Assembly: GCF_018446385.1 (NCBI RefSeq)
Contig: NC_055987.1
Span: 11,927,705 to 11,991,704 of the forward strand
Direction: 5' to 3'
DNA: 64,000 bases
Source: Zingiber officinale
Taxonomy: Eukaryota; Streptophyta; Magnoliopsida; Zingiberales; Zingiberaceae
In this document: positions 15,859-54,740 of the stretch, in pieces
Numbering within the stretch: position 1 is the stretch's first letter
How the letters are laid out: every line of letters starts with the position of its first letter
Notes under the pieces: generated by a model
Told to the model about the DNA's origin: nothing
The model's database searches: none
What the model saw: the letters and a program-made list of their open reading frames with translations, nothing else
Program-made: the position numbers and the translations under genes

Positions 15859-15863
15859 CCATG

Positions 15864-20524: not shown

Positions 20525-21545
20525 ATGTAATTTGTGCGTTCTCCCCATCAATGTTTGCTACTGTGTCTTAACTCAATGTACCCCCCTGTGACCTCATTCT
20601 CGACTTTGGAAGCAATGAATCATGAATGCTTTGATCCGTTATGTTCCTGTCTTCCCTAAGTTTGGATTTGTTATGGAACTGTCGTGTAATGTTCATCTCT
20701 CTTATTTATGTTCCTGTCTATACTGTGCAATGATTGGAACTTTAGAGTAGATGGAACAACAGATTCACTTGGAATATAATCTCAATCGAAAAGTTTTTGC
20801 TTCTTTTTTTTTCTCAAATATTGAACTTCTTCATCCAGAAAAGCAAGTTTCTTTGCACCGGAGGTGTCTTTGTTTTTTGGTAGTCCACGAACTAATTTTT
20901 TGACTGACGCATTCCCTTCCTGCAATTCGCAATATCTCCTTCATTGCTAAATAAAGAATGCTTTTGTGTCTTAATGTACCAAAATAATAAATTGATGATG
21001 TATTTTTCTATCCAAACTGACATATTTTGCACCATTAATGTAATTTTTATAATAAAAATAATCGTTTTAGACCGAAATTAGTGTTTTTGAGCCCAAGGTG
21101 TTTTTTAGCTGAAAACAAATTATTCAGAAAAGAAACCCAAAATAAGTGATCATCTTGTAAAGCAAAGGATAAAAAAAATAGACCTAAATTGACTTCCAAG
21201 ATAAAAAAAAAACCCCAAATGGACTACTAAGATAAAAAAAAATAGCCAACCCAAAATAAGTGATCTCCTTGTAGAGTAAAGCAAAGGATAGAAGAATTCT
21301 GAGAGTGGAGCCAAGCCTGTGTTCTTGCAAACTTTTGGGTAAGAGCACACAATTTCAGACTTCGACCTCGTAAACAATTTTCCAATTGCTGCACAAAAAA
21401 AAAAAAAAATGCTGTATAGATGCACATACACCATGTACATGGATCTACTATTTATGACCGAACAAGCCTATACCGCTTTGCAAGCCGTGGATTTGCAATT
21501 TCATATCTTTGCAATAGACTCATCTGAACACCATTTCAGATGCAC
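20525..21545. other. Convergent 3' intergenic region
   Basis: Holds the 3' UTRs of the two convergent genes. AT-rich with A-runs (21208-21214, 21233-21241, 21395-21409). A short imperfect tandem pattern of CCAAAATAAGTGATC, spaced about 115 bp, occurs at 21137-21270. No ORF with recognisable content. Confidence 0.5.
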
Positions 21546-24500: not shown

Positions 24501-25322
24501 TAGTTCTTAAGAACAAAATCTCCCTAAAAACATGAATTTAAACATGACTGTACCTGTCTGCCAATTCACCTTGAATTCTTTGTATAGTCACCTGTCAATT
24601 AATTCAAAAGTTCATTAGCGATGCACTTGCCACTTTTTGTCACATGAAGTAGATGATCTTCTTCTACCTTGTCTTTTCTTGGTCGAAAGTTAGATGCAAA
24701 TTATGTTGCAGTATAAGTTGTTTCAGAAAGTTACTGTTTATGAGTTAGCAGAAATGCTCACATGCAAGATCGTTCCAGCTTTGAGATGGAGAGAGATAGA
24801 AGAGGCTTTGAACACCTCGCCATAATCTGTCAGGTTCACCGTGCCTTCTCCCAGAACACCGAGCTCATTTGGTCCCTGCTGCAAGAACTCAGCAATCAGT
24901 ACTCACAACCGGCAGAGCTACAGATACAATTAATGGATGAAATCTGAAAGTGACGATCTTTCTCACAGTCTTAGAAACTAGAAACTGGTACCACTTCTCG
25001 TTCATCTTTCCACTCTTTGCATCGCGCACTAATTTCACTGTTTCATAAATTGGGTTCGACCAGTTGCAGGTTCCATTAACCACAGCAGCCTTTTCAGTCC
25101 TCGCCGTTGGTTTTCCAGTGTCCAGCTGAACCAAATTCACCATCACTGTCTCTGATCCCAACAGTGGTACCTAAAAGACCAATACTGGAAATAGCTAGAA
25201 TTCCAGGTAATTGATTAGCAATCCATTGTTCTAAGCAGACCAACCTTCGTCGCTTGGAATTGCAATTTGAAAACAACCTTGATCTTGTTCTTCTCGTTCC
25301 TCCATCGTGCAGTTTTGAACAT
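21546..25322 (-). CDS. NT-C2 domain coiled-coil protein (plant myosin heavy chain-related family)
   Basis: Coding exons on the minus strand: 25322-25245, 25170-24967, 24878-24762, 24591-24554, 24462-24339, 24187-22295, 22032-21950, 21783-21546. All junctions are GT-AG and join in frame to 924 residues. Residues 1-146 form the EEIG1/EHBP1-type N-terminal C2 domain (MFKTARWRNEKNKIKVVFKL start, GTCNWSNPIYETVKL, LGEGTVNLTDY, VTIQRIQGEL end), thought to bind membranes. A Ser-rich linker follows (about 190-250). Most of residues 250-920 is predicted heptad-rich coiled coil, with one CPKC motif near 443. The family in plants includes proteins described as myosin heavy chain-related, but no motor domain is present. 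Specific function is unknown to me. Confidence 0.93.
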
Positions 25323-25690
25323 CTTCGATCTTCCTTTTAGTTCTCAGTGATCACTCATTGAGCAAAGTGTGGAAGGGGAAAAGATTGCTTGGAAAATCTT
25401 TGAAACAGTGACTGTTTATTTGTCAAGGAACTTAGAGAATTAATGGAAGGTTGGGACATATAGGTGTACAAATAAGGTAGAGAGTAGATGTGAGGGTGTG
25501 GGTGGTATGTAATAATATGTTTGTTGGTGAATGGCTTGAAGGTCACAGCAAAGAAGAAGCCATACTGACAGGTGATGATGATGATCACTTCTTGCAGCCT
25601 TGGTATTTATCTTACCATATATAATATGATACGGTGATAAAAAATAACCCCAAAAATAGATCAGAGCAATGGTAGAGATCAAAGTCAAAC
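25323..25690 (-). promoter_or_regulatory. Upstream region of the NT-C2 coiled-coil gene
   Basis: Sequence 5' of the ATG at 25322. It carries CA/CT-rich tracts and a GAT trinucleotide run (25573-25583). I see no clear TATA box position that I would defend. Short ORFs on the minus strand are low complexity and not supported as genes. Confidence 0.4.
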
Positions 25691-26330
25691 GGTTAAAATT
25701 ATAGGGTCGGATGGACTATGAGATAGCGGACTGCGGACTAGGCAAGGATAGCCGAGTGTACTTACAGAGCCGGTTGGACGTGAAAGGCTGATCATACCTT
25801 CCGAACGGTCGTCCGTCACAACTTGCAACTGAGATTAAGAGTCAAAGTTACCATGCCCACCGCCCTTGCCGATCGGCCCTTTGGTCTGACCGAGTTGATG
25901 ATATCTCGGTCGAGTGGTGCTCGGTTGGTTTACAACGGGATCCACATGCATATCTTATCGTACTCTTTTGAAAGTTTGTACCGCTTACAATAGAGAATGT
26001 TCAACAGACAAATCATATTTTAGAAGCTTCTAGTCAGTCACATCATAGAGATTTACGTGCTCGTTTAAGGAAAGATTTTAGAGACACTTTTTGACTTGTC
26101 TTTTCCTAGGAAGTTTTGAAAAACATATATATGCTTTGGGATGCGCGTATAGATGCTACAATAACATCATAAAAAAGAGGTCTCCATCTACAGACAGAGA
26201 TATGCAATGCTTCACTTTTCTCCATGCTCTCTACTATTGTTCACTATTATTATTCTCTCCTCCTGAATTGAATACTTATTTGAGCGTCAGAAGGTAAATA
26301 CCGGATGTCCTTTTCCTAATCCGACATTAA
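25690..26330 (-). mobile_element. Gypsy-like LTR fragment (inverted relative of 62270-62900)
   Basis: AGAGACACTTTTTGACTTGT with CTTTTCCTAGG at about 26080-26110 is the reverse complement of the block at 62408-62437. Further matches follow in order: GAAGCTTCTA near 26030 against TAGAAGCTTC near 62480, and TCTTATCGTACTCTTTTGAAAG against the ATATGATAAGATAT area near 62550. The GATCGGCC and TCGGTCGAGTGG rich flank also matches the GCCGACCGG rich stretch there. The pattern suits a Ty3/Gypsy LTR, without clear ends or TSD here. Confidence 0.55.
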
Positions 26331-27316
26331 CGCTCCTTGTATTATAGATAATACAGAATATTCTTCCGGTGAACCATGTCCTATTTACTGCTCGCTGCGG
26401 CAGCTAATCAAACACAGAGCGAGATTGTACACTTTATTCTTCATGATGGTCACGAGTCGGATGCAACTGCTCTGGGAACCTTGAAAATAATGTAGAAGAA
26501 GAAAACACCAGCCAATTCAAGTTTATTCTAGTGTATTAATTTTGTTTCTCTCTTTTCAATATTTTCAAACGTACATTTCGGAGAGAATCAAACTATCTTG
26601 TCCCTGTTAGGTGCAAACTCCTTATACAAGACCATAATTTATAATCACGCAGCAAAAATTTTCCTTTAAACATGGTCAAGCTTCCATTAATTATCTGTAG
26701 AATGATTTGAACAAGACAATCCCTCCATGATGGCTTAATTCAACAACCATGTTTGGCTTGCGGCAGAAGGTGGATCTTGCTTGCCTTCAAAGCCTGAAGG
26801 CAGCTCGTGCTCGTCTCTTCTCATGCAGGTGCATTGGGCATGTTCTGCTCACTTTTGACAGGTTTGTTACCCATCATTGAAGGAGCAGCAGCCAGCAGCA
26901 TCTGCACTGCAACAGCCAAGTGGGCGAGAGGTATAGTGCTGTACAGGTGTAGTTTTTTTTCCCCATGCTTGCAAGCTTAGTTTCGAGGAAAATATTTGAT
27001 TCCAATTATCGAATTTTTTTTAATCAAATTCAAATTTATAATATTTTATTTGATTAATTATAACTGTTCATGAGCAATCGAATATTGATTATTTTTATAT
27101 AATTTAAATTTAAATATATTTAAATTAAAGTTTGAATAATTTAAATAAACTCAAATTTAAAATATTTTAAATTTTAGTTTGAACCTAAGTTCAAATAATT
27201 CAAATCGAATCGAGCTCGGATCCTATTTCAAATCAAACTCAAATTAAAATTATTAGTTTTTGATTGAATTGGAATATTAAACTTTGCACGTAATCTCTAA
27301 TCACAATTTAAAGTTT
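26331..27316. other. Intergenic DNA with no supported gene
   Basis: 26331-26960 has mixed composition and no frame over about 60 codons. 26990-27300 is AT-rich with repeated TTTAAATT/AATTTAAA words. No features recognised before the CACTA terminus at 27317. Confidence 0.4.
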
Positions 27317-28065: not shown

Positions 28066-28382
28066 TGACGGGTGTGTCGGATATATGCTGTTGTGCTGTC
28101 CTGTGCCAGTCATTTTTCTACTTGTTAATTTTTTGATAAATTTTGTGCTAAATTATTTTTATTTTGTAAACAGATAGCATTTGCTGCTCTTCTCCAGTAC
28201 ACATTCACATCTTCAGATATATTTTAGTTTATTGTATTTTATATTATTTGCCATTGTTTAATTTACATATATGTTATGTTCGTATCTTAATCTGTAACAT
28301 AATATCATTCTTTTGATTGTTTTGTATTTGTACGTTAATTTAAGATAATTTATAATTATCAATTTATTAGTTTTAGGTGAAA

Positions 28383-28771
28383 ATGTCTATGTATAAAGCT
28401 TGGATGTACAATCGATTAGAAAATGAATTTATTAGAGATGATTTTATTACTGAAGTTGAAGAATTTGTCAACTATGCTAAAAGTCATCAAGAATGTATGA
28501 ATGGTGCAGAATTAAAGTGTCCGTGCAATCATAAAAAATGTCAAAATAGAGCTTTCCGTGATGAAAATACTGTAAAAATGCATTTATGTAGGAATGGTTT
28601 TGTGCCAAATTACTACAATTGGTACTGTCATGGAGAACCTTATTTGTATGAATCAATTGGGCCTTCCGGTGGTTCATCATCTGGCATAACTTTTACTGCA
28701 CATGACTCATCAACTTATGATATTGGAATACAATCAATGGTTCACGATGCAATGAATGCCGCAGTTGATTA
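28383..28771 (+). pseudogene. CACTA tnp2 transposase N-terminus (transposase-associated domain)
   Basis: Start MSMYKAWMYNRLENEFIRDD, then CPCNHKKCQNRAF and HLCRNGFVPNYYNWYCHGE. The Cys/His pattern and the FVPNYYNWYCHGE stretch are typical of the transposase-associated zinc-binding domain at the N-terminus of plant tnp2 proteins. An acceptor-like AG precedes the start, so an upstream exon is possible. The frame is cut after NAAVDY at 28771 by the LTR inserted at 28772. Residues seen after that point are translated LTR. Confidence 0.85.
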
Positions 28772-30369
28772 TGTTGGTGCAACCCTAGGTCAAGGTTGAC
28801 CTGGTTGACCCGACTCAAGTTGACGTGACTCGAGTTGTATTTTGATGTTTGACTTGGGAAGATTGTCGGTGCAACCTTAGGTCAAGGTTGACCTAGTTGT
28901 GTTGCATGTTGATGTTTGACACTCGTGAGAGAGTTCTATTCTTGATGTGGGACAAGAATAGATGTTTGGGAGATTATTGGTGCAACCGTAGGTCAAGGTT
29001 GACCTGGTTGACCTGATTCGGGAAAAGTCCAAGTATGAAGACTTGGCACGGAAAAGTCCAAGCAGGGAGCTGGCATCGAAAAGTCCAAGTATGGAGACTT
29101 GGACTGAAAAGTCCAAGGGAGCTTGACGTGAAAAGTCCAAACAGGAGTTTGCACGGGAAAAGTCCCGTGAGTGAAGCCAGTGGAAATCCCGGTGAGTGAA
29201 GAAATCCTAGTGAGTGAAGCTAGGAATGGGAAAGTCCTAACTGATGTTGGCGTTGGGAAAGTCCTGGGAGGAGGTGAAAGTCCCGTGAGTGAAGCTGAAG
29301 AAGAAAGTCCTAATGGATGTTAGGCTGGAAACAGTGAGTGAAGCTGTGAAAGTCCCGTGAGTGAAGCTGCAAGGAAAATCCGGATGGATCGGGGATGATC
29401 GGACTGTGTGGAAAGTCCAAGTAGGTCAAAGGGACCGGATACTTGGCGAGTTCTAGCAGTCAAGGGAGTGACCAGATGCTAGGGATGAAGTACCAGTAGG
29501 TTGACCGGATATTGGTTTGGAAGTCTTGGGACTTGGTTTGGGCAAAAAAGCTCGGATCGGTCACCGATCGATCCAATATTTTATCTCGATCGGTCCTATC
29601 CACCGACATACAATCTCTCTGCTGTGGCACGATCCGTGACCCACCGCAAGCAACAGAGGCGAAAGAGGTCGATCGGTCCACACACGTTGAGATGCCTCGA
29701 CCGTCTGGGACCGATCGAGAGATGGCGTCGCGCACAGCCAGAGTTAGATCGTGCCGGACCGATCAGTCAGGTCCGCGGCCCACGAGCACGCACAAGAGGT
29801 CTCATCGGACCGGGACCATCAAGACCGATTCGAGCGTGACTGCCGCAACGCTAGTTTTTCATTGCTTCTCCTTCGCAGTATAAAGCGAGGGCTTCGATGC
29901 GAGGACTTTCTTCTTGAGCCTCGCTTGACCGACCACCGTGCGGTCTTGAGCTTCTTGAGCTCATCGCGGCAAGCTCGCGTGAGTTTCCTCGCCGGGTAGC
30001 TGCTGGATCCGAGGCCGCATCAAGGTTCCAATCGACAACAAGAGTGTTTTTACAATTTCTATTGTTCTTGTTTGTTGTCTCTATTGTTGTACTCCTTTGT
30101 CTGTTGCAAAAGATTGTGGTGAGGTTTCTCCACCCACAAGGAGTATTATTAGCCGGGCGGACTCATCCACCGACGGATTGGAGAGGCATTCCACCTTACT
30201 GACACGCCGAGGAGTAGGAGTATCATCTCGAACCTCGTTACATCGACGTTGAGGTTTGATCTTCTTGTTTTCGCTTCCTTGTTTGTTTTCCATCCAACGC
30301 ATTGTAGGAAGAACGCGATCGATTTGGCGCTTTCACCCCCTCTCAGCCGACAGTCGAAGGATCCTAACA
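28772..30369 (+). repeat. LTR 1 of array (1598 bp)
   Basis: TGTTGGTGCAACC at 28772 and GATCCTAACA at 30369. The core promoter TATAAAG lies at 29879-29885. It carries AAAGTCCCGTGAGTGAAGC repeats (29150-29360) and ATCGATC/GACCGATC palindromes (29540-29830). It is followed by a PBS (30372-30383). Confidence 0.9.
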
Positions 30370-30371
30370 AG

Positions 30372-30383
30372 TGGTATCAGGCG
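30372..30383 (+). promoter_or_regulatory. Primer binding site of array unit 1
   Basis: TGGTATCAGGCG follows the LTR after two bases. It matches the Met-tRNA-type site TGGTATCAGAGC except for a 1-bp loss. Equivalent but more damaged text follows LTR 2 (CGGTATCGCAGCG near 35320). Confidence 0.8.
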
Positions 30384-30430
30384 AGGCCGCTCTTCGTCGG
30401 ATCAACACCCGTGGGAGCAAAGCTAGAGAA

Positions 30431-31815
30431 TGGATCTCTATGGAGAAGACATCACCATTCCACCCTTCTATTTAATGCGGCGATCACAGAAGGTAAGGAT
30501 GAAGTACTTTATGACTAACATAATGAATTGGTTTTGTGTACAAGAAGGTTTTACTCCTCCGTGGATAAGGAAGGAAAACCACTTGAGAAGAAGGAGTGGA
30601 CAAGAGAACAAATTCACAAATCCGAAATCAACGAAGAGGTAACGAGAATAATTGAATTTTCATTGCCTAACATCTTGTGTAAGATAGGTTACAACAATGC
30701 CAAGGAATTATGGGATAACTTGGCCAAGTTCCATGAGGGAAGCTCAAATTCAAGCCATGAAGAGGAGCTAAGTGAGCCAAGTAGCTCACATCATGGAGGA
30801 GAAGATTTAGAAGTTGAGGCCACTCAAAAGAAGAGGAGAGTTCCTCTTCAAGATCGGAGCAAGAAGAAGAAGCTTCTACCTGGATGAAGATGAGAGCGTT
30901 CATCCATCCTCAACCCTAGGTAACTCAAGCATTTTAATTTCTAGCAAATTACATAGGGAGAATGGGCACTACAAGAGCAAGTGTCCAAAGAGGGTTAGAA
31001 AGACTCCACCGCACCAAAGGTCAAGGAAGCCGCGTCCCAACACGCAAAGGCAAGAAGCACGTGGTGTTCAAGGGGACACTATAGGAGCCAATGTCCGAAG
31101 GGGAGAAAACCTCACAAGGACAAGGGATGCACATCGATAGGGAGCTAAGGCAAACCCTAAGGTATCTTCTCATTCGTGCAATTCTAGTAGGATACATGCT
31201 AGTAATTTTATTGCATTAGTCAATAATGCTAAGCATGTTAACACTAGAAATCAATACATGTGCTTAGGTGCTAAACATGTCAACCTAGATAGGGATACTA
31301 CTAGGAATGCTAACCCTAGGATTAACACTTCTAAGGTTAAGGAAAACCTAGGTAGAAACCCTAAATCAACTAGACACATGCCTAGGAACACCTCAAGAAA
31401 GAATGACAAATCAAAACTTGAGGTATTAGAGAAAGAAAATCGAATCTTGAGGTCAAGACTTGACTCTCTAGAAAAGGCTCTTAAGGATTTGACTCTAGGG
31501 TTTAAGGGTCAAAAACCAATGTCCAAGGACAAGAAAGGTTTGGGTCACAAATCTAAGTCCCAAGTGGTCAAGCCCACTTATCACAATGTTCCATTCGATT
31601 ATGGAACAAAACCTAGGGCTAGGAAGACCACCACCAAGGTCACAAGGGGAGTCACCCCTAGAGTTGATCTTGATGAGTCCCAAATGACCAAGGCTTCAAA
31701 GCCTAAGAGGGTCATTAGGAGGGTTGCTAGGGAAGTTATCCCTAGTGAATATTTAGTGAACCCAATGAGCTCAAATAGGTATTGGGTTCCTAGGAGCATC
31801 TTCTCTATCCCATAG
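30431..31815 (+). pseudogene. gag: gag of array unit 1
   Basis: Starts MDLYGEDITIPPF, typical for this gag group, with the UBN2-like domain reading NWFCVQEGFTPP, then (after a frame change) KEWTREQIHKSEINEE, IEFSLPNILCKIGY and AKELWDNLAKFHEG. A zinc-knuckle remnant GHYKSKCPKR lies near 30965. The C-terminal part is an open 185-residue frame (31258-31815) with a coiled coil (LEKENRILRSRLDSLEKAL), basic tail and ending NRYWVPRSIFSIP followed by a stop. At least two frameshifts separate the parts. It resembles the gag at 8789-10471 in domain order. Confidence 0.85.
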
Positions 31816-33591
31816 ATGGGTTAGAGAGTGTCAACTCCGATTAGAAGGGTAGTTAACCCAACTTTGAGGAAATTGACACTCAAGGAGCATTTTCAAGGTT
31901 TTGAGAACTTTTGAAAATGAAATGGAATTATCATTTACTCCTTTGAAGAGTTAAATGTGCCTAAAGATTGGAAATTTCATTTTTAATCTCAATTGGCACA
32001 ATTTGGGAAAATCTAGAGAACTCTCGAAAAAAAATGAAACATGCCAAGTTTTGAGGATAAATTTGATCTTTAAGTGGCATGAATTAATCTAGAGTTCAAG
32101 AAGTGTCAAAATTAGGATTTTGGCATTTTGGGGCAATCTAGGATTAAATTTGAAGTTAGCCAAGTGGTTAAGGATACTTAGATAGGTAATCTAGGTATAT
32201 TTATTTATGCTAAATCTTGCCATGATTGTTTGCCCTCACATGTCATGACATCATGTTTAGTTTTATTATCATTTGAAATGTCATGATAATGCTTAGGCTT
32301 TATGTCATGTTTAGTTTCAAACTTTATGCCATGACATCATGACATTGGCACATGTTTTCATTGATGATACCATTTTATGCCATGTCATCATCTCTTGCAT
32401 TAGTAATCAATTGAATTGATTTAAGGATGAAAAACACACTTTGATATTGAGATCAAATTTGTGTTTAGAAAATGCATGAGACCTTAGTCTAAGATACCTA
32501 AACCCATATCTCACATCAAAATTGACTTGGATGTGTTGATACACTTTAAATGTGTGTGAGATATTAGGATCATGAGTTAGGATCAAGGTGCATAGTTCTT
32601 GTACCTAGATGAGCCTAATTCAAGAAAATTAGGATCATAGGGAAAGCTTGTGTACAAGTCATGTGCATATAGCCCTAAGATTGTGGTCCCAAATTAAAGG
32701 GTTTGAAATCATTTCAAAATTGTTTTGAAAAACCTTGATGAAGCTTTCCTAGTGATAGCATTCATCATTGACAAAGTTGACTTAACTTGAACTATTTCAA
32801 AGTTTTTGAATTTTGTATCAAGATTTGAAAATGGAAGTTATTTTCATCTAAAACTATTTTTCCATGATAGTATATGTTATGAGGTGTATTCTCAAAATTT
32901 CACAATTTTATTTTATTTTCTGTGATTTTCTAGAGGTTTCAATTTCTCGAAGGAAATGTCAATCGAGATGTGGACCGATCGAAGAGTCCGATCGGTCCAA
33001 GGATGTGGATCGGACGATCCGATCTGTCTGATCGATCGGTGTCGACCCATGGGCGTGTCTTTGATACATTTGCGATCTTGTCCGAAAGTTCAGCTAGAAG
33101 TTGGGTTTTATGAATTTCTAAGGTTTGGAACTCACCAGACATTGTTGGTGCAATGGTAAGGGGAGTTGACCTTTTAGGGAGTTTGTACTCCTTAAGACTT
33201 TTGAGGATTAGTGATATGGGATTATCACTAAATTGATTGTTGAGTTATAGGATAGGAAATTAAGGTTTTGAAAGAAATTGACCTTGATATCTCCTTTTTC
33301 TTTTATGTCCAAAAGAGTGTTCATTGGAGAATTATTGGAGAACCCAAGTTAGGTTATCGGGTTAACCTAAGCTAGGGAAAGAATGTCAAGGAATGTTCAA
33401 GGAAGAACATTGGAATTCTTTTGATGTATGTCAAAGGGGAGAGTATTCAAGTTGGGTTATCGGGTTAACCTAAGGGGAGAATGTCCAGAGAATGTTCAAG
33501 GAAAGAACATTGGACATTGAAGATGATGAAACCTAAGTTAGGTTATCTAACCTAACTTGATTATAGTTTTGTCAAACATCAAAAGGGAGAT
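31816..33591 (+). other. Noncoding 3' internal region of array unit 1
   Basis: About 1.8 kb with no coding frame, ending in a PPT (ATCAAAAGGGAGAT, about 33578-33591). Where an autonomous Copia element would have protease, integrase, RT and RNase H there is only AT-rich sequence with short direct repeats such as TGTCATGA near 32240-32400. Confidence 0.7.
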
Positions 33592-35316
33592 TGTTGGCAA
33601 CCTAAGGACGACCTGGTTGACGACTGAGGCGTGACTCGAGTTGTATTTTGATGTTTGACTTGGGAAGATTGTCGGCGAACTTAGGTCAAGGTTGACCTAG
33701 TTGTGTTGCATGTTGATGTTTTGACACTCGTGAGAGAGTTCTATTCTTGATGTGGGACAAGAATAGATGTTTGGGAGATTATTGGTGCAACCCAGGTCAA
33801 GTTGACCTGACCGGGAAAGTCCAAGTACTTAAGACTCAGATGGAAAAGCCTGCCAGGAGCTTGGCATCGAAAAGTCCAAGTACGGAGATTTGACTGAAAG
33901 TCCAAGCAGGAGTCACATCGTGAAAAGTCCAAACAGGAGTTTGCACGGGAAAGTCCTGTGAGAAGCTGTGCAATGGGAACTCGTGAGGAAGCCAGTGAAA
34001 TCCCAGCGAGTGAAGCTAGTGAATGGGAAAGTCCTAACTGGATGTTAGGGTGCCAGGAAAGTCCCCGTGAGTGAAGCTGTGCAAAGGGGAAAGTCCCGTG
34101 AGTGGCTGCAGTAAGAAAGTCCTAACCGGGATGTTAGGCGCAGAAATCCTCGTGAGTGAAGCTGTGTGAAAGTCCCGTGAGTGAAGCTGTGTAAGGGAAA
34201 ATCCAGATGGACTGGTGGATGATCGACTGGTGAGCCGAAAGTCCAAGTAGGTCAAAGGGATTGACCGGATACTGGCAGGAGTTCTAGCGTGTCAAGGAGT
34301 GACCGATGTTGTGATGAAGCAACAATAGGTCAAGGTTGACCCTATATTGGCTCAAAGTTCGACCGGTCAGCAAAATTGCGCTCGGATCGCCGCACTGATC
34401 CAAAGGATAATTATTTTTTCTCCGATCGGTCTAACGACCCATCGACATCGGTCAGGTTTCGTTCGTTGCCATCGACTCCACCCAGACCGATCGCCACAAA
34501 TGAGGCGAAAAGAGGCAGGGCCGATCGTCCATGCATCGGACAAAGACAAGTTCCCGATCGGCCTGGACCGATCGAGACGGTCGCCGGGTTATCGCCTGAA
34601 GTTAGACTTCCACCGCGACCGATCCAGTCAGGTTCCGACCGTCCACGGCATCGACGTAGCACGCATAAAGAGGCTCTCGCGATCGAACGATCGGGTTCAA
34701 ACGACCGATAGTCTCCGACGTCCGAGACCTATCGAGTTCTAGCTGCTGCGCACGCAACGGCTAGTTTCTTCACCGCTTCTCCTTCGCAGTATAAAGGGGC
34801 CGAGGTAGCTTCATGTGGCGAGGGACTTTCTTCGAGCTTCGCCTTCGACCACCGAAATACCGGTGTGCCTTGAGTCATTTAGCTCATCGGCCAAGCTCAA
34901 GGTGAGTTTCCCCGCCGGTGTTCTAGTTGGGTTTGATCCAGGTCGCCGCTTTATCATAAGGTTCCAATGACAATGAGGCAAGCAAGTGTTTTTACAATTC
35001 TATCGTTTTGCTTGTCGTTCTATTGTTGTACCTCTTTGTTTGTTGTTGCAAAAGATTGTGGTGAGGTTTCTCCACCCACAAGGAGTATATTATTACCGTT
35101 CTCCGGACTCATCCACCGACGGATCGAGAGGCTTGGCCCACCTTACGGACACGCGAGGAGTAGGAGTATCATCTCCGAACTCGCTACATCGACGCCGAGG
35201 CTTGATCTTCTGTTTTCGCTTCGTTTGTTTTTTCACCGCTGGCACTAATTGTAGAAGAAACGCAATTTGGAAGTGGCTATTCACACCCCCCCAGTCGGTG
35301 CAAATGGCGATCCTAA
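33592..35316 (+). repeat. LTR 2 of array (about 1725 bp)
   Basis: Starts TGTTGGCAACC after a PPT and ends near GGCGATCCTAA at 35316, where LTR 1 has GATCCTAACA. TATAAAG at 34790-34796. Its sequence follows LTR 1 closely but with many 1-5 base insertions and deletions. Confidence 0.82.
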
Positions 35317-35369
35317 TTGCGGTATCGCAGCGAGGCCGCCTTCGGCCATCAACACCCGTGGAGCAAAGC

Positions 35370-36790
35370 TAGAGAATGATTCTACGAGAAGACATCACCA
35401 TTCCAATTCTTCATTTAATGCGCGACTTCGCCAGATGGAAGGTAAGGATGAAGTACTTTCTACGATTAAATATAATGAATCAACAGGTACAAGAAGGTTT
35501 TATCCCGGATAAGGAAGGAAAACCTGAAGAAGATGGACAAGAGAACACCACAACCAAAATCAACGAAGAGGTAATTTAGAATAATTGAATTTTCATTGTC
35601 ACCAACATCTTGTGTAAGATAGGTTACAACAATGCCAAGGAATTATGGGATAACTTGGCCGGAGTTCCACGAGGGAAGCTCTGCAAATTCAAGCCATGAA
35701 GAGAGCTAAGTGAGCCAAGTAGCTCACATTTGGAGGAGAAGATTTGTAGTTGAGGCCACTCAATATCTAAAGAAGAGGAGGGTTCTTCAAGATCGGAGTG
35801 CAAAGAAGAAGCTCTACCTCCTGAAGGGATTTAAGACGAGAGCTGCTCATCCATCCTCAACCCTAGGTAACTCAAGCATTTTAATTTAGCAACTACATAA
35901 CGTGCTTCGAGGTAGGAATGGGCACTACAAGAGCAAGTGTCCAAAGAGGGTTAGAGACTCCACCCAAGACCAAAGGTCAAGGGAAGCCAAGGCCCCAACA
36001 CGCGAAAGGCAAGAAGCACGTAGTGCTTTCAATGCAAGCAACGGGGACACTATAGGAGCCAATGTCCCAAGGGAGAAACTCACAAGGACAAGGGATGCAC
36101 ATCGATAGGGGGGAGCTAAGGCAAACCCTACATCTTTAAGGCTATTCGCGTAATTCTAGTAGGATACATGCTAGTAATTTTATTGCATTAGTCAATAATG
36201 ATAAGCATGTTAACACTAGAAATCAATACATGTGCTTAGGTGCTAAACCTGTCAACCTAGATAGGGATACTACTAGGAATGCTAACCCTAGGATTCCCAC
36301 TTCTAAGGTTAAGGAAAACCTAGGTAGAAACCCTAAATCAACTAGACACATGCCTAGGAACACCCTCAAGAAAGAATGACAAATCAAAAACTGAGGTAAT
36401 AGAAAAGGAGAATCAAGTCTTGAGGTCAAGGCTCGATACCCTGTAAAAAATGCCCTAAAAATTTGTGAGAAGTCAACCTAGGGCCTATGGGCCAAAGTCC
36501 TGTGACAAGAAAGGTTTAATACAAATCTAAGTCCCATGGTCGTCACTTACCATAACAATGTTCCATCTGACATGGAACAAAACCTAGGGCTGGTGGGAAG
36601 ACCACCTCACCAAGGTCACAAGGGAGTCACCCCTAGAGTTGATTCTTGATGAGTCCCAAATGACCAAGGTCAAAGCTCAAGAGGGTCAGGAGGGCTGCTA
36701 GGGAAGTATCCCTAGTGAATATTTAGTGAACCCAATGAGCTCAAATAGGCATTGGGGTTCCTGTATATCTTCTACCCCATAGATACAGAG
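35370..36790 (+). pseudogene. gag: gag of array unit 2 (heavily frameshifted)
   Basis: Aligned by eye to unit 1: GAAGACATCACCATTCCA at 35390, GGCACTACAAGAGCAAGTG (zinc knuckle) at 35929, and the near-identical C-terminal block at 36135-36420. It ends at the NRYWVP-equivalent region near 36740-36780. Many small indels leave no frame longer than about 80 residues, although blocks of 100-240 bp are almost unchanged. Confidence 0.75.
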
Positions 36791-38577
36791 TGTCAACTCA
36801 TTGTATGGTGTTAACCCAACTTGAGTGAAATTGACATCATGAGCATTTCAGTTTTGAGAACTTTTGAAATGAAATGGAATTATCATTTACCCTTGAAGAG
36901 TTAAATGTGCCTAAAGATTGGAATGTATTTTTAATCTCAATTGGCAATAATTTAAAAATCTAGAGGAACTCAAAAAATGAAATATGCCAAGTTTTGAGGA
37001 TAAATTGATCTTTATGGGTATGAATTAATCTAGAGTTCAAGAAGGTCAAAATTAGGATTTTGGCATCTTGGGCAATCTAGGATTAAATTCGTTAGCCATG
37101 GTTATGATGCCAGAGCAGTAATCCAGGGTATATTTATTTATGCTAAATCTTGCCATGATTGTTTGCCTCGCATGCCGTCATGACATCATGTTTAGTTTTA
37201 TTATCATTTGAAATGTCATGATAATGCTTAGGTTGTTTGTGTCATGTGTTAGTTTCGTCAAACTTACACATACATCACGACATCGCACATGTTTTCTACC
37301 GATGATACCATTTACGCCATGTCATCATCTCTTGCATTAGTGTTCTCAATTGAATTGATTTAGTGATGAAAACACTTTGAGATTGAGATCAAATCAGTTT
37401 AGGAAAATGCATGAGACCTTTAGTCTTATGATACTTAAACCTACATCTCACATCAAATTGACTTTGATGTGCTGATACACTTTAAATAAAGTATATTAGA
37501 TCATGAGTTAGAATTGCTGCATAGTTCTTTGTACCTAGATGAGCTTAATTCAAGAAAAATTGGACTAGGGGAAAGCTGTGTACAAGTCATGTGCATATAG
37601 CCCTAAGATCAGGTCCCAAATTAAGAGTTCAAATCATTTCAAATTGTTTTGAAAAACCAATAAGCTTTCCTAGTGATAGTATCTACTATTGAATACACAG
37701 ATGAAGTTGACTTAACTTTGGAACCATTTCAAAGTTTTTGAATTTGTATCAAGATTTGAAAATGGAAGTTATTTTCATCTAAAACTATTTTTCCATTTAT
37801 AGTATATGTTATTAGGAATGTATTCTCAAATTTACAATTTTCAATTTTCCGTGATTTTGATGTTTCGAATTCCTCGGTGCTGAAAATCGCAACGTAAATC
37901 GAGAGTTAGGACCGATCGGCGGGAGTCTCGATCGGGTTCAGTAGCTTGTGGATCGGGTCACTGACCGACCAGGAGTTCCACGTCCCACCATCAGTATGCA
38001 GTTAACGGCTCGACAATTTCGTTGTCCCAAAACCAAATAGAAGTTGGGTTTTATGAATTTCAAAGGTTTGAAACCTGGCTGCACATTGTTGGTGCAATGG
38101 TCAAGGGGAGTTGACTTTGGGGAGAGTTTGTACTCCTAAGACTTCTTTGAGGATTAGTGATACGGGATTATCACTAAATCGGATTGGCTAGTGCTTAGTG
38201 ATAAAGGGGAAAATTATGAGTTCTTAAATGAAAGGAAGTGACTTTCATTAGAAGAAATTTTTCACCTTGATACTTCCTTTTTCTTTTGATGCGTCAAAAG
38301 GGAGTGTTCATTGAGAATTATCGAGAATCCCGTTGAAGTTATCTAAGTTAACCTGGCTAGGAAAGAATGTCAAGGAATGCCCGCGAAGAATAAATTCTTT
38401 TCGATGTAACAAAAAGGGGAGAATTATTGAGAACCCAAGTTAGGTTATCGGGTTAACCTATGAATGTCCGTAGAATGTCTAAGGAAAGAACATCGACATT
38501 GAAAGATGATTGAAACCTGGGTTAGTTATTCGTTAACCTTAACTTGATTATAGTTTTGTCAAACATCGGGGGGAGAT
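36791..38577 (+). other. Noncoding 3' internal region of array unit 2
   Basis: Matches unit 1's noncoding region in order, ending with ATCGGGGGGAGAT directly before LTR 3. No ORF. Confidence 0.65.
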
Positions 38578-40128
38578 TGTCAGGTTGAGGCAACCCCAGG
38601 TTCGCCACACGCCGTTGACGACCACCATTAACGCGAATCTTCGAGAGTTGTATTGATGTTTGACTTGGGAAGATCTTGGTGCACTTAGGCTGGTGAAAGG
38701 ACCTAGGTTGATGTTTGTTTGACACTGTGAGAGTTCTATTCTTGGTGGGACAAGATGTTGATTATTAAACCGGTCAAGAGGTGCAAGTGGTTGTGAGTGA
38801 CTCAAAAGTGCCGTGAGGGCTTGAGCAAGCCATAGGTGAAGCGTGATCGGAAAGAAGTCCAAAAAGTGACACGTGAAGTCCAGTTTGGTACGCACAGGGA
38901 GGGGTTTGAGTTCGCACGACCAGAGTGGTGAAAATCGGCACAATCTCCGGGAGGGTTAACTTGGTGTCCTAGTGATCTGAAGGCGGTCGGTTAGAGGTCA
39001 TGGCAAGGCAGGTGTGGGAGAGTGCAGAAGCGGTAGAGCGGTGAATCCTAATCGGGATGATGTTGCAGTGGACAGGAGCCGTGAAAGTCTGAAGTGCCAG
39101 TAAAGGAGGAAACTCTGGACAGGATCAGGGACCTCGTGACTGTAAGTGAGGCCGGTCGAGAAGATTGACCCGGGATTGACCCATTTAGTTCAGCAAGGTC
39201 AAGTGAGACCCGGATGGTACGGTGCCGACCGGGGTTGAGAGGCTTGGGACTTGGTGTTGGGCAAAAAAGTCACCGCACGTCCGGTGTTTTGATCCTTTCA
39301 TATGATGCAGACCCTATCGTACCATCCGGTCAGCTACCTACCGACGGTGATGCGATTCAGCCAGGCGAGTATGCTTAATCGGTGACGGCGATGTCGCTCT
39401 CGAGAGATGTATCGGCTGACATCCGTATCGACTGCGCCTCAGACACGCTCAACAGCCGTTCGTGACCGGAGTATCGTCCACGGTCAGCGAGTGGAGTACC
39501 AGAATGTCTGTAACGGCTGCACGATCGATGCAAGATCTGGTGTCGAGTCGGCCAGTGCGATAGACCGGGAACCGAGGCAGCCGTATAAAGTTTCTGTACC
39601 TTTTCCATCCTCTTTCTATGACGCCTGAGAGGACCAGCGAGTGTTTTCGAGATGAGCGCCTCTCTGTAGTTCTGAAGCGTGCGAAGTGGTTTGTTGTCTT
39701 CTTGTGGATTGCTCTTGATCCCGATCTCATTAATCTTGGGTTCCCGCTCATCCATCAACGCGGACAACAGGCGCAAGAGGAGAGGCGCATTTGTGTTTGC
39801 TATTGTACTACTGTCTGTCCTTTTTGTATGTCTGTTTGTCTCAAGAGCAAAAGATCGAGGTGAGGTACTCCTGTCTTCTTTGGTTCGCTTTACTCTCCAG
39901 AAAGGATCATCCAAGACCGCGGAGGTCCCGAGGTCTCCCGCCGAGAGGAAGGAGTAGTTCACTCGCTACGATGTCGTTGAGAGGCGTGCTGGAAGGCTCA
40001 CAACTTCCGTGTGGGTCGATCTGAGGTCTCCATCGTTAATCAGAGAAGAAACTATATGAATTGTAGGAAGAAGCCGCTATATTCAACACACCCCCTCTCT
40101 GGCGGAGTAACCAGATCCTCCTAGAACA
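38578..40128 (+). repeat. LTR 3 of array (about 1550 bp), strongly altered
   Basis: Begins TGTCAGGTTG after a PPT and ends near CTAGAACA at 40128. TATAAAG at 39584-39590. The GTGAAGTCC-type repeat section and the ATCGGTC-type section are recognisable but altered far more than in LTR 2. Long minus-strand frames here (such as 39375-39962) are not supported as genes. Confidence 0.7.
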
Positions 40129-40179
40129 TCAAGAGCCCTTAGTGAGCAGCTCACAGAAGAGCTCATCCAGACATGACAC

Positions 40180-41520
40180 CATGAATGGCGACTGCCCCCT
40201 TCTACGTATTGAAGTACTACTTTCGATGGTAGTTACTAATTGTAACATAATGAATTGGTTTTGTGTACAATAAGGGTTAAGGAAGGAAACCACTTGAGAA
40301 GAAGGATGGACGGACAAGAAAGGACAAGAGAAGGAAGGAAAACGAGAATAATTGATTGCAACGGATAAGATAGAATGCCTACAACTAGGTTACCATCTTG
40401 TGTATGATAGGTTGCAATGATAGTTGAAAACTTGGAACATAACTAAGTTCCATGAGGAAGCTCAATTCAAGCCATGAAGAGGCCAGTGAGCCAAGTAGCT
40501 CACATCATGGAGGAGAAGATTTAGAAGTTTGAGGGTCACCCAACATCTAAAGAAGAAGAGGAGGAGAGTTCCTCTTGAAGATCGGAGCAGAAGCTTTCTC
40601 GGAAGGGACGAAGATGAGATGGCTGCTTCCATCCATCCTCCCCTAGATAACTCAAGCATTTTAATTTCTAGCAAATTACACATAATGTGCTGTTGTAGGG
40701 AATTTAGGCACTACAAGAAGAGCAAGTGTCCAAGAGAGGGTTAGACCCACCCGCAAGGAAGGAAGCGTCTATCCCAGGTCCCAAGCAAGGCAAGAGCCGT
40801 GGTGTGCTTTCAATACAAGCGAAGGGGACACTATACAATGTCCGAAGGGGAAGAAACCTCACAAGGACAACCAAGCACATCAATAGGGGGGCTAAGGCAA
40901 ACCCTAAGGTATCTTTTAAGGCTCATTCGTGCAATTCTAGTAGGATACATGCTAGTAATTTTATTGCATTAGTCAATAATGATAAGCATGTTAACACTAG
41001 AAATCAATACATGTGCTTAGGTGCTAAACATGTCAACCTAGATAGGGATACTACTAGGAATGCTAACCCTAGGATTAACACTTCTAAGGTTAAGGAAAAC
41101 CTAGGTAGAAACCCTAAATCAACTAGACACATGCCTAGGAACACCTCAAGAAAGAATGACAAATCAAAACTTGAGGTAATAGAAAAGGAGAATCAAGTCT
41201 TGAGGTCAAGGCTGTTAGTTAGAGCCCTGCCCTTAAAATTTAAAATTTAAGTCAACTCTGGGCCTATGTAACAAACTGGTGACAAGAAAGGCCACAATCT
41301 AAGTCCCAGTGGTCAAGCCCACTACAATCCATTCGATTATGGAACAAACCTAGGGCTAGGAAGACCACCACCAAGGTCTCAAGGGGAGTCACCCCTAGAA
41401 GCCTAAGAGGGTCATTAGGAGAGTTGCTGGGGAAGTCATCCCTGAATATTTAGTGAACCCAATGAGCTCAATAGGTATTGGGTTCTTGAGCATCTTCTAC
41501 AGATGGGTTAGAAGTGTCAA
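40180..41520 (+). pseudogene. gag: gag of array unit 3
   Basis: Shorter than in unit 1. The block around CTCAAGCATTTTAATTTCTA (near 40650) and the C-terminal block (40900-41200) are nearly identical to unit 1. The frame from 40726 to 41250 is 174 residues with NPRINTSKVKENLGRN and KSKLEVIEKENQ, then diverges. It shares the variants AATGATAAGC and AAAAGGAGAATCAAG with unit 2, so units 2 and 3 look closer to each other than to unit 1. Confidence 0.75.
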
Positions 41521-41712
41521 ACTGATTAGTAAGGTAGTTAACCCAACTTTGAGGAAATTGACAATCAAGAAGGGTTTGAGAACTTTTGAAAATGAAATGG
41601 AATTATCATTTACTCCTTTGAAGAGTTAAATGTGCCTAAAGATTGGAAATTTCATTTTTAATCTCAATTGACACAATTTGGGAAAATCTAGAGAACTCTC
41701 GAGGAAAAATGA

Positions 41713-42645
41713 AACATAAAAGGTAGCCTGATCATATGGGCGCAAGTACGCAGATACGTATCAAAACCCTAAATTGTTCTTCTTTGTTCACCCTCCTCCA
41801 TCAGAAACTAACTTGAGCGTTACAGTGGATGCGCCTGAGACTCTCTAACTGTCATTCTAAGCCTCCCTTTCTCGTCATTTTCTATTCAGGCTCTAGCAGA
41901 TATCTTCACCAATTTTCGCTACTGTTAGGTGACCAATGACCTAGCCAATATTCACACATGTTCATTGATGGTTCGTTTGCCGACATTCTCAGGTAGAATC
42001 AATAACACATTGGACATTTCAAGGAGAAAATCCTAGCAATCAAATTGGGCAAGTTTATCAGACTGCGTAACTAGATTGCAAGCGAGTCGCCAATGGATTC
42101 GTTCCAATAATTGCTATGCTCTAGTTTTGCATGATCCCTACGATAATAGATACTGTGGGCCATGCTAGCAAGGGTGGAACCATGCACGTGATAGCCTATC
42201 TAGGCTTTAGGCAAGGGTCCGACACCGATACTGAGGAGCTGCTATATTTGCGACGAGAGAAAGGGTACATCTTTCGATAAATAATAAAATAATATATGTC
42301 TTTAAGTAAATTTAAAATTACGTTATTTGGTAAATTATCAAATTTAATTTGATAATCAACAAAAAAAAAAAATATATATATATATATTTTTACAGAATTG
42401 AATCGCTCACTCAGGATGTGGATATTTAAGATTGAGGAAGAAATAGAGTCAATCTTGACAACGCAAGTCCGTCTACGTTCCTTAGTAGAAAGTTCCACCA
42501 CAGTGCCACATGCAGTCTTTGTGGGGATAACTTATAGAAGAAAATAAATGCTAATCAAGCCGGCGATTAAAAAGATCACTTTGCGACAATTTTTGAATAG
42601 TCAATTATGCTTTATTAATGGCAGGGTTGAGTTTAGTATAAAATT
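41713..42645. other. Unassigned segment replacing part of unit 3
   Basis: The homology with units 1 and 2 stops near 41712 (AAATGAAACAT) and resumes near 42646 (AGGGAGTTTCAATGAAAGG, then TTTCATTAGAAGAAATT). The 930 bp between do not resemble the corresponding parts of the other units. It includes an AT microsatellite (42373-42389) and no clear frame. It could be an old insertion or foreign filler DNA. Confidence 0.6.
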
Positions 42646-42972
42646 AAGGGAGTTTCAATGAAAGGTATGGGACTTTCATTAGAAGAAATTCTTACCCTGA
42701 ATTTCTTTTCTTTTCGACGCGCCAACAGGAGAAGATTATCGAAACCCGTTAGTTACGGTTAACCTCAAGCTAGGAAAGAATGTCAAGGAATGTTCAAGGA
42801 AGAACATTGTTCAATTCCTCCTTCGATTTGACGAAAGAAAGTGGTTTTAGATATTGAACCCATTTTAACCGCTAAGGACTTAAGAATGTCAAGAATGAAT
42901 GAATGTTCAAGGGAAAGGAATGAATTGGATTTTTGTATAAGTGTTGAACGTTAGTCGGGTTGTCAAGGAGAT

Positions 42973-44688
42973 TGTTGAGTCAACCCCAGGTCAGACATCG
43001 ACTGGAAGTCAATTTGACCGAGCCGAACGTGACAAGGTATCTTATGGGAGATTTCACCTAAGGGTGTCGGCAGTCAAGTGACCGTTGACCAATATCTTCC
43101 GCATATTCGCCGACGCCTCTATGTGGGACAAGAATGATGACTTGGGAGATTGTGGTACACCAGACCTAGTTGGTCGTATCGGGAGATCAATGCATGACAC
43201 TTCGCGGAGAAAGGTTCTTCAAGTGATGTGGGAAGATGGAACCGAAAAGCAAGGTATTGACATGACCGACTAGATTAGTCCAAGTCGTTTGGAGAGACGG
43301 AAAAGTCCAGACTGATAGACAAGGCAGACCCAGAAGCAGGCACCACGAAAAGCAGGAGGGCCGAGGAGAGTCTCCCGTGGAGCTTGAGGACAGTGGCAGA
43401 AGTGCAATCAGTTCGTGATACGTGAAACAGTGATGTCGGTGAGTGAAGCGTGGATAACTGTTAGAACAGCCGATGTGGGATGAGTGAGCAGTGTGGAAAG
43501 TCTGGGTGAGGCAGTGAAGAGTCGCAGAAAGTCTGGCCGGGGATGTTGCGGTGGAGGGAAATCTGAGGAAGCTGTGAGTCCCGAAGTGCCGGTGCAAAGT
43601 GAAGGCAGAAAACCAGGGCGGAGTGCGAGTGTTGACAGATCGCGAAAATGACTGAAGTAGTTGGTGTTGAAAGTCAAGATACAGAAGGGGAAAAGTAGTC
43701 ATTGCAGTTCTAGCTAAGCACGAAGGGTGATACGCTGGGACATAGACAGACTTGGCTCGAAGTCTGGTGGTTTGGGCGGACCAAGATTCGATCCAAAGAG
43801 ATACTTGAAGCCGGAGGATTCTCCGGACTGACGCAATGACCCGGAAGGTCAAGTTTCGGTTATGATAGTTTTCACCGATACGGTGGCCGTTCCAGGCAAC
43901 AGAGCACATCGAGGCCGTTGGCAGTAGCAATCGAGCCCAAAGTGTCCGCGCATTTGTCAGTTAACCGTGTCCATCCGGTCAGTTATCTTTAGCGGATCAG
44001 ACCCGTCCTATCCCAGTAGAAGTACAGTTAGGATCCGGCTCTAGCCAGCAGAGTTGGAACGACGGTACCAACATTTGCGGTCCAGCTGGCAGCAGGGAAT
44101 GCGGCTGGTGACTGGGGACTGGCGAGACCTACATCAGTTCCGAGGCACGAGTACTAGGAGTTCTAACAGTTTCTAGTTCTCAGCTTTTTCACTCCTCATA
44201 AAGTTCTATAAAGGCCGAGAGAGGGCTTCATGGCACGCCTTCAGGACTTTTCCTGGTTCGTTCGCCACTGTGCGCTCCGAGTTCGTATTCGCCGAAGCTC
44301 GCGAGTTTCCGGTGTGTGTTCTATTCGGAAGCCGCCATCTGGAAAGCCGGGTCATTCGAACCACACAAGGAGAGCAAGTGTTTACAATTTCTATTGTTCT
44401 TGTTTGTTATCTCTGTTGACCACTCCTTTGTTTCTTTGTTGCAAATTGTGGTGAGGTTCTCACTTGCTTCTGAGGAGTATATTCGGTTCACGAGGGATTG
44501 CCAGTTGAAACCCGTCCATACGCCGAGACACGTAGGAGTATCATCTCCGAACCCTCGTTAAACCGACGTTGAGGTTTGATCTTCTTGTTTTCGCTTGTTT
44601 GTTTTTCGCTTTTCCCATCGCGCTAACGAATTGTAGGAAGATTCTTATTTAACGAATTGTAGGAAGAAGCAGCGAGATTTAGATCCTA
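42973..44688 (+). repeat. LTR 4 of array (about 1716 bp), strongly altered
   Basis: Begins TGTTGAGTCAACC after GGAGAT and ends GATCCTA at 44688, adjoining GATTA. TATAAAG at 44207-44213. The large minus-strand frame at 43187-43930 falls wholly inside it and is chance coding. A second internal copy of the terminal GAATTGTAGGAAGA word occurs near 44630-44670. Confidence 0.7.
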
Positions 44689-45230
44689 GATTATTCCAGC
44701 AGTCTAAAGGATCCTCTATGATTATTCCAATGAAACACACTTTTCAATATCGTAAGCTATGTGAAAAGGCTAGTGGTTATTGGAGGAAGACGTTTCCCTC
44801 GAATTAAGCTCCCGTGTATCGATACTATCAAGGTTGTTGAATATGAAATTTTTCGATGTTATCATTTTCTGAAAAGTCACCAATTATGATGTCATATTAA
44901 TGTCGAGTTACTTCTGTGACAATGTGGAATAATTTTATAGTACGAAGAAATTGGTTAGAGGTTTAGGTTTGTGATTAGAAGAAGATTACTTTGTGTAAAC
45001 ATGCATGATATTTTGGCATGAGAATATCAGCCCGAGTGAATGCAAAATCTCACCCTCGTTATCAAGAATGTTACCGGAAGAAGAAAAAATTATTAGTGAT
45101 TGTATTATTTTCCTTTAAGCAGATTACACGTTTGTATGACGACTTTGGACAGTATGCATGAGCATGAAGGCATTATTATATGTCATCCTTGTGATTTTTA
45201 CGCATGGAAACATCTTGATATTTCCCTCGT

Positions 45231-46147
45231 TTGCAATGGAACGTAATGAGATGGGACTTTCTGGTTGATGGATTTGAATTTGGTCGATCGGACAGCATGA
45301 TATTCATCCCGATCGATATATTAACATACAATTTACCACCCTGGATGTGCATGAAAGATGAATTTATGTTTCTTACTGTGCTTATTCCTGGTCCAACCAA
45401 TCCCAAAGAGAAGATAGATGTTTTCTTGCAACCTTTAATTGCAGAATTAAATGATTTATGGAATGTAGGATCAGTAACTTATGATGTTGCAAGTAAAAGT
45501 AATTTTAGATTGCATGCTGTATTATTATGGACGATCAGTGATTTCCCAGCATATTCAATGTTGTCAGGATGGAGCACGGCGGGTAAATTAGCTTGTCCAC
45601 ACTACATAACAGATTCTGATGCCTTTTCATTACCTTGTAGTCGGAAAGTATCCTGGTTTGATAATCACCGGAAGTTTTTACCTATTGATCACCCTTTCAG
45701 GTGGAATAAGAAATATTTCCTAAAAAATATTGTAGTAAGAAAACCTCCTCCAGCATTCCATATATCAGGTGAAGAAATCATTGAACAAATAGACAGTTAT
45801 GGATTTCTACCAGTATCTCAATCTGGTTCTGATGAGATAAATAGATACATTGTTAGGATGTGCTATTGTGGTTGGAAAAAAGGAGTATTTTTTGGGAGCT
45901 CCCCTATTGGAAGTATCTACTTATTCGACATAATTTAGATGTCATGCATGTGGAGAAAAATTTCTTCGATAATATCTTTAACACTGTGATGAATGTGCCT
46001 GGAAAAACTAAGGACACTACAAAATCTTGTGAAGAATTAAAACAATTAGTAAACAGACCAGAGTTGCATCAAAATGAAACAACTAATAGATTTCCAAAGC
46101 CTTGTTATACATTAGACAAAGATGGTAAGCAGACTTTATGTCATTGA
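45231..46147 (+). pseudogene. CACTA tnp2 transposase core (Transposase_21), frameshifted
   Basis: Two overlapping frames (45231-45938 and 45860-46147) joined by a frameshift near 45890-45935. Visible family text: YNLPPWMCMKDEF, LIPGPTNPKEKIDVFLQPLI, LWNVGSVTYD, LLWTISDFPAYSMLSGWSTAGKLACP, and the C-terminal part MHVEKNFFDNIFNTVMN. These are hallmark stretches of the tnp2/Transposase_21 domain. The segment preceding 45231 back to 44720 is too altered to read. The protein would cut CACTA ends; this copy cannot make it. Confidence 0.9.
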
Positions 46148-54420: not shown

Positions 54421-54429
54421 ACAGCAAGA

Positions 54430-54740
54430 CCATTCCATTCCTCCCATTTCCTCGGATCCCTATTCGCCGCCGCCGCCGCGGTGAAACCCTCTCCCAGCCT
54501 CCGCAGACGCATCCTCTCTCCGGCGGCGTCTCTCCACTCGAGCCTCGATCAAAGATAGTTGGATTTCCCTCCCCGTGCCGACCGAGGACCGAGCCCTCGA
54601 GGATGTGGCTCCTGATCGGACCGCATCGCCCCTCTCACCGAACCTCGCTACCGCCGCACCTTTCTCGCCGGGCCCGAACTAGGGTTCCACGCAGGCGTTC
54701 CCGTCGTCCGGCCGACGAGAAAGACGCCGCGTGATTTATC
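54430..54740. other. GC-rich island, unassigned
   Basis: Strongly GC-rich between AT-rich flanks, with GCCGCCGCCGCCGCGG at 54468-54483. It resembles a first exon or 5' UTR of a plant gene. One plus-strand frame from the ATG at 54603 gives MWLLIGPHRPSHRTSLPP and soon stops. I do not recognise the product. It may be a leftover 5' end, or an alternative upstream exon of the gene at 55375. Confidence 0.35.

Follow-up and report, generated by a model that had tools for sequence, protein, structure and literature searches.

How do three copies of a long terminal repeat (LTR) retrotransposon come to lie head to tail between a single pair of target-site duplications (TSDs)? We address this question at a locus of ginger, Zingiber officinale, at which LTRs and internal regions (INT) follow one another in the order LTR-INT-LTR-INT-LTR-INT-LTR, in a single orientation, over positions 28772-44688 of a stretch of 64,000 nucleotides, which we call the window (C2:11927705-11991704). 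We consider it likely that this is a real three-unit tandem array of a gag-only, copia-type element which, on one haplotype, interrupts a CACTA transposase gene after a single integration that duplicated GATTA.

Three units at one insertion point in a CACTA gene

Self-comparison and pairwise alignment gave the order of the segments, whose borders are accurate to about 3 bp (Table 1), and all nine pairs of LTRs and of internal regions outscored a shuffled partner by far. Purine-rich tracts ending in GGAGAT precede LTR2, LTR3 and LTR4, and damaged forms of a primer site lie downstream of LTR1 and LTR2, with none recognisable downstream of LTR3. LTR4 lacks the usual AACA terminus, and corruption makes LTR3 and LTR4 nearly invisible to BLAST. 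GATTA was found at both outer ends of the array. At the inner borders we looked for 5-bp repeats flanking LTR2 or LTR3, which the sequence-only reading of the locus had named as evidence for separate insertions, and found none. Alternating LTRs and internal regions with common inner LTRs, an LTR at each end, TSDs at the outer ends only and a single insertion together make up the structure of a tandem LTR retrotransposon. Unit 3 carries an unrelated stretch of about 0.93 kb in place of what, by eye, is about 1.2 kb in units 1 and 2, for which an insertion plus a deletion, or an erroneous gap fill, are both conceivable.

The array splits a CACTA transposase, with the transposase-associated domain (28395-28637) on its left and Transposase_21 (from 45264) on its right. 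Both domains lie on the same strand and are colinear with homologues on both sides of the array. We fetched 120 homologues, 36 of which have matches near the join on both sides; across these 36, subtracting the protein gap from the DNA gap leaves +7 codons at the median, with extremes of -26 and +36. With a 387-bp probe, scoring the best 40 of 1,923 genome candidates, we obtained CACTA paralogues that are 96-97% identical over the probe. In the three that were examined (L032, L033 and L034; 3/3), the insert-free site reads GCAGTTGATTA joined directly to TTCCA. Because this empty site is exact, the whole 15.9 kb array is one insertion with GATTA as its target duplication, and we conclude that it has one insertion point inside the CACTA transposase gene. 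The sequence-only reading had proposed four LTRs and three internal regions in one orientation, a single flanking GATTA duplication and one insertion rather than three, and these proposals were borne out.

A gag-only family related to copia elements

We sampled the array's family at eleven genome loci, yielding 14 internal regions and 25 LTRs. Single copies have LTRs of 1.6-1.9 kb with a substitution likeness of 97-99% and internal regions of 3.38-3.50 kb; across family relatives LTR length is 1.6-2.0 kb. All single copies fetched (6/6) have a primer site, a purine tract and exact 5-bp TSDs, as TR-GAG elements do. In 8/14 internal regions the gag frame stays open from stop to stop over 487-512 codons, and in a ninth over 448 codons; in the remaining 5 it is broken. 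Judged by open reading frame (ORF) length only, none of the 14 contains a forward stop-to-stop frame of more than 105 codons outside the gag span. The family copies thus carry the one gag ORF without pol that characterizes TR-GAG elements; in the window units the gag frame is broken. Two zinc-knuckle stretches were detected in each of the four gag frames scanned (4/4), with one score in the whole set just below the Pfam cut-off; the frames contained no pol domain. A search of the array segments with three proteins from a single copia element (reverse transcriptase, RNase H and integrase) yielded one unconvincing match at E <= 1 (integrase, E 0.22), in agreement with the earlier claim that no unit retains pol.

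The N-terminus of the family gag resembles the gag of a copia element in the window (29% over 85 residues, E 3e-13). The N-terminus and the zinc knuckle align clearly, the middle of the copia gag is unaligned and no Pfam gag domain is matched. In the family gag frames L029:4532-6055 and L027:4951-6411 (minus) the capsid middle is perhaps missing. The gag piece has similarity to five short-contig proteins, four of which stop at, or a few residues from, the same place, before any protease. Gag similarity, together with a primer site motif that is presumably of the initiator tRNA-Met type, suggests that the family is of Ty1/copia type, and on its sequence we classify it as a gag-only, copia-type, non-autonomous LTR retrotransposon of ginger. 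Such an element would depend on an autonomous relative for its reverse transcriptase and integrase.

Tandem arrays recur in the genome

We searched the ginger assembly (3,090,333,446 bases) with a clean 292-bp gag probe and scored the best 40 of 2,448 candidates, at identity >=98%. The 40 matches represent 36 loci, window included. Same-strand pairs one unit (5.1-5.4 kb) apart occur at 4/35 or more of the loci outside the window. This value is a lower bound, as the examination covered 6/31 unpaired matches, all of them single. Three further arrays are complete, each with three LTRs, two internal regions and an exact TSD pair (CCCTC, ATCTA and ATATA); a fourth array pair, on C3, is truncated. 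The three complete arrays lie at C2:51.2 Mb (the CCCTC array), C2:126.06 Mb and C20:14.86 Mb. Empty sites were checked for the ATATA and ATCTA arrays. At the site of the ATATA array, flank paralogues L036, L038 and L039 are contiguous with 1-2 unaligned bases, whereas about 13 bases are absent from L037. Of the ATCTA paralogues, L042-L044 are exact and L041 is not clean. Alleles of two other arrays were not found, their flanks matching highly repeated DNA. We conclude that tandem arrays recur in this gag-only family.

Divergence between units and the assembled consensus

Raw differences among the units of the window array amount to about 20-49%, gaps included, and gap events exceed substitutions (181 vs 93 for LTR1/2, 243 vs 166 for INT1/2). 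Compared with the closest family copy, taken from the 25 LTRs and 14 internal regions above, gap events per 100 bp were 8.0 for LTR1, 2.7 for INT1, 11.8 for LTR2, 8.3 for INT2, 20.4 for LTR3, 13.2 for INT3 and 20.1 for LTR4; family copies compared with their closest copy at another locus gave 0.0-1.9 for internals and 3.4-7.9 for LTRs. In every array segment (7/7), missing events are more numerous than extra ones. The short indels increase from left to right, extend about 0.7 kb beyond the array and end abruptly near 45,400. Against L032 the left flank has 0 gaps and 23 substitutions in 734 bp, and the right flank has 18, 21, 10, 14, 8, 0, 0, 0, 0 and 1 gap events in successive 150-bp bins. 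Across three paralogues, the right flank shows 13-22 gap events per 150 bp adjoining the array, 5-14 further out and 0-2 past +700 bp. The short indels at 44694-45400 appear to mark the edge of a poor consensus tract.

Frameshifts in gag of units 1, 2 and 3 number 1, 13 and 7 (stops 0, 0 and 2) against protein P0241, and 4, 8 and 5, with zero stops, against protein P0245. A host exon of the window has 0 frameshifts across 636 codons, and this 636-residue stretch aligns gap-free with a protein of Zingiber officinale at 97% identity. Gaps were strongly linked to GC content for LTR1/2 and LTR1/4 (rho 0.86 and 0.80), a link that is absent for INT1/2 and INT1/3. Repeats inside the window gave gap/substitution ratios of 0.23-0.31 (three old repeat pairs), 1.35 (12,021/14,966), 2.0 (12,818/15,749) and 1.07 (49,818); shifted tandem repeats (7397, 1837 and 63021) proved useless as controls. 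Because the family LTRs themselves give ratios of 0.77-1.57, only internals, exon and flanks serve as clean yardsticks. The pair at 12021-12922 and 14966-15858 is LTR-like, with CpG mostly kept and many short indels, and is perhaps a second poorly polished spot.

These comparisons suggest that the region from about 29.0 to 45.4 kb is an error-laden, patchy consensus tract and that most base-level divergence between units is probably error in the assembled consensus. Several points weigh against so simple a picture. The gaps show no homopolymer enrichment, unlike textbook nanopore error, and gap openings against L033 (5 in 954 bp) and L034 (11 in 1515 bp) also occur further left, although on the right they are more numerous (29-36 in 1315-1397 bp across the paralogues). 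A misjoin within the tract may also have occurred, unit 3 with its foreign 0.93 kb being the weakest part. The sequence-only reading had proposed pairwise alignment of LTRs and internals as a test; on these letters the test is uninformative, since most differences are consensus errors, and we rejected dating of the array by LTR divergence on the same ground. Grouping of the four LTRs was trusted in neither direction: one projection contained almost solely private changes, and a multiple alignment gave an excess for LTRs 1 and 2 against 3 and 4 (58 vs 23 and 14).

The window assembly is apparently the nanopore ginger assembly of PMC8342452, which underwent gap closing as well as polishing with Pilon and NextPolish; another published ginger assembly was built from PacBio continuous long reads (PMC8342499).

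How and when the arrays formed

Two explanations concern the letters of the window themselves. Were the units simply old and decayed through indels, an identity of 81-82% in the longest BLAST-aligned pieces would be accounted for, yet we regard such an age as very improbable. Gap events per substitution are 1.19-1.57 in INT2-3 (0.79 in INT1) vs 0.04-0.48 in the 14 family internals, and 1.63-2.20 in LTR2-4 (1.70 in LTR1) vs 0.77-1.57 in the 25 family LTRs. The CpG observed/expected ratio is 0.92-1.01 in the array LTRs vs 0.16-0.19 in an old copia LTR pair, although the array internals are at 0.37-0.52; gag has frameshifts with few stops; and the CACTA gene is clean left of the array and corrupted right of it. 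Alternatively, noisy reads of a high-copy family might have been misassembled, partly or wholly, into an array. The error gradient with its sharp right border near 45,400, the unrelated stretch in unit 3 and the gap closing reported for the apparent source assembly (PMC8342452) would fit this. We nevertheless consider an artefact improbable, as the outer borders agree with an exact empty site and TSD, a clean 292-bp patch differs by unit (private changes 8 in unit 1, 7 in unit 2 and 0 in unit 3) and the assembly has similar arrays, better read, at other loci.

For a real array, the remaining question is when its units multiplied. Summed over three arrays, private clean-context substitutions number 15, 13 and 12 in the first, middle and last LTRs. 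Since the middle LTRs have as many as the outer ones, formation at or soon after insertion is favoured; the ratio of duplication age to insertion age was estimated at 0.96, with a lower bound of 0.46. We therefore lean towards multiplication of the units at or soon after integration, by which a multimeric cDNA would have been integrated, or long LTRs would have undergone early unequal exchange. Recombination and multimer routes both stay viable, and the sequence-only reading, which had named LTR recombination or integration of a multimer, is supported as a pair of alternatives. Other observations pull the opposite way. Counting all clean-context changes in the three arrays gives the outer LTRs a higher divergence than the internals (27/3246 vs 31/9248, or 0.83% vs 0.34%; P 0.0008), a sign that duplication followed insertion, and in the CCCTC array 55/58 indel differences separate the first LTR from the other two, unlike a star. 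Outside CpG the LTR-internal comparison is not significant (12 vs 25, P 0.35), and residual errors in the CpG-rich LTRs could bias any timing measure.

These data bear unequally on the individual routes. In late unequal homologous recombination, an aged single insertion would be multiplied by LTR exchange between sister chromatids or homologues. This route, which we regard as possible but somewhat doubtful, draws on the excess divergence of the outer LTRs, on the length of the LTRs (1.6-2.0 kb), on the C2:51.2 Mb array, whose last two LTRs are alike (12 substitutions, 3 gap events) and differ from the first (36-37 and 50-56), and on its place among the routes named in PMC7215508 and PMC11899658. 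It sits poorly with the middle LTRs, which hold 13/40 of the private clean-context substitutions where few would be expected after a late event; in addition, internals are about equally diverged as LTRs outside CpG, and in the middle LTR of the C2:51.2 Mb array the order of common changes differs from the crossover prediction. Integration of a multimer is a possibility that we hold tentatively. Here concatenated cDNA, arising by template switching or from one-LTR circles through read-through transcripts, would be integrated whole, a mechanism also proposed in PMC11899658 and PMC7215508. The apparently equal age of the three LTRs by substitutions and the presence of several independent arrays within one family are consistent with it. 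However, errors spread evenly across LTRs would imitate a star, early recombination yields an identical picture and the indels of one array do not fit a star. That the family habitually integrates such multimers in one step, because its short genome would fit two or three times into a helper particle, with at least 1 in 10 of the loci nearest to the gag probe (4/35) an array, seems to us rather unlikely.

The other haplotype and the window surroundings

On the other haplotype, the homologous stretch of C1 is colinear with the window on both sides: C1:11221194-11232620 matches positions 15858-27255, and C1:11263111-11271399 matches positions 54177-62479, in each case within 89-98%. Among the matches listed for the C1 interval between them, none of >=200 bp involves the CACTA flanks, and the other haplotype is therefore silent on the mechanism of the array. 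The C1 interval holds a separate single copy of the array's family in reverse orientation, with LTRs of 2.0 kb, an internal region of 3.54 kb and TAAAT on both sides after the start is moved by one base.

Further left in the window, the minus strand at 1838-10393 contains parts of a copia-type element. Its frames encode gag, a zinc knuckle, integrase and reverse transcriptase, and two repeats (1838-2331 and 6544-7023) are LTR-like; the LTR similarity of this element to the array is weak (62.6%), and it is a lead for the helper lineage. An LTR piece of the array's family lies at 1160-1513 (75% identity to the end of LTR1). The window also contains an intact host exon for signal recognition particle receptor alpha at 16573-17574 (PF04086), an intact host exon at 22271-24220 with a PF10358 protein as its best match in ginger, and local tandem repeats at 7397-8193 and 63021-63254.

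Table 1 Features of the array and its insertion site (window positions)
Feature	Position	Strand	Remark
Left target-site duplication GATTA	28767..28771	+	Empty site in three CACTA paralogues: GTTGATTA then TTCCA
LTR1 (TGTTGG...AACA), initial ~300 bp clean	28772..30369	+	
Internal region 1 (damaged primer site, gag fragments, purine tract)	30370..33591	+	
LTR2	33592..35319	+	
Internal region 2	35320..38577	+	
LTR3, heavily corrupted, approximate end	38578..40122	+	Aligned to LTR1: score 424 vs -86 for shuffle
Internal region 3	40123..42972	+	
Stretch in internal region 3 unrelated to units 1-2	41718..42650	+	Weak AT-rich matches only elsewhere in window
LTR4, heavily corrupted, terminus GATCCTA rather than AACA	42973..44688	+	
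Right target-site duplication GATTA	44689..44693	+	
Longest gag fragment, unit 1, 224 codons, C-terminal half	31141..31812	+	81% identity to independent short-contig protein, near-identical end point
Gag fragment, unit 1, N-terminal part	30519..30884	+	
Gag fragment, unit 3	40708..41247	+	
CACTA (tnp2) transposase gene, N-terminal part, left of array	28377..28766	+	PF13963, E 4.7e-19
CACTA transposase gene continued, right of array, frameshifted	45219..46144	+	PF02992, E 1.5e-51, colinear with homologues
Probable error-laden consensus tract, patchy in internal region 1; most of array and ~0.7 kb of right flank	29000..45400	.	

Relation to known tandem and gag-only elements

The TR-GAG class is said to have been founded by Chaparro 2015. 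It is now an accepted class of non-autonomous elements (PMC9784723, PMC6022998, PMC5818461), and the ginger family shares with it two LTRs, an internal region with gag only and a mobility thought to need outside help. Unlike TR-GAG elements as described in these papers, the ginger element has a gag with two knuckles, a clear copia gag match limited to the N-terminus and zinc knuckle, and a long tail without a long ORF.

Tandem LTR elements bounded by one TSD pair are common in plants: PMC11899658, which leaves their origin unsettled, reports 266 potential cases for a rice pangenome and between 11 and 130 for three other species. The window array resembles them in its alternating LTRs and internals, common inner LTRs, single TSD pair and absence of inner TSDs; inner TSDs are likewise absent in the cases studied in detail there, and one rice case also lies within a DNA transposon. 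By the same source, 28/28 curated rice cases encode retrotransposon protein domains and 82% are gypsy, whereas the window array is copia-type, gag-only and of three units. Head-to-tail arrays are also described for Cassandra, and at least 4600 three-LTR structures are cited for BARE1 of barley (PMC7215508), both being explained by LTR recombination or concatenated cDNA; unlike the ginger element, Cassandra lacks gag and pol and BARE1 is autonomous. The sequence-only view that such arrays are rarely described does not hold for tandem LTR elements in general (PMC11899658, PMC7215508). We found no earlier report of tandem arrays of TR-GAG or gag-only elements, or of such arrays in ginger, in a search that left most subscription literature outside.

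Tandem LTR elements having been described already, the new part is the recurrence of arrays in one gag-only family. The case is also a warning that, where polishing of a noisy-read plant assembly has failed, ages computed from its LTRs can be greatly inflated. In ginger, one phased genome offers several arrays of a single family together with empty sites and sister copies that are single, which makes the question of their origin testable.

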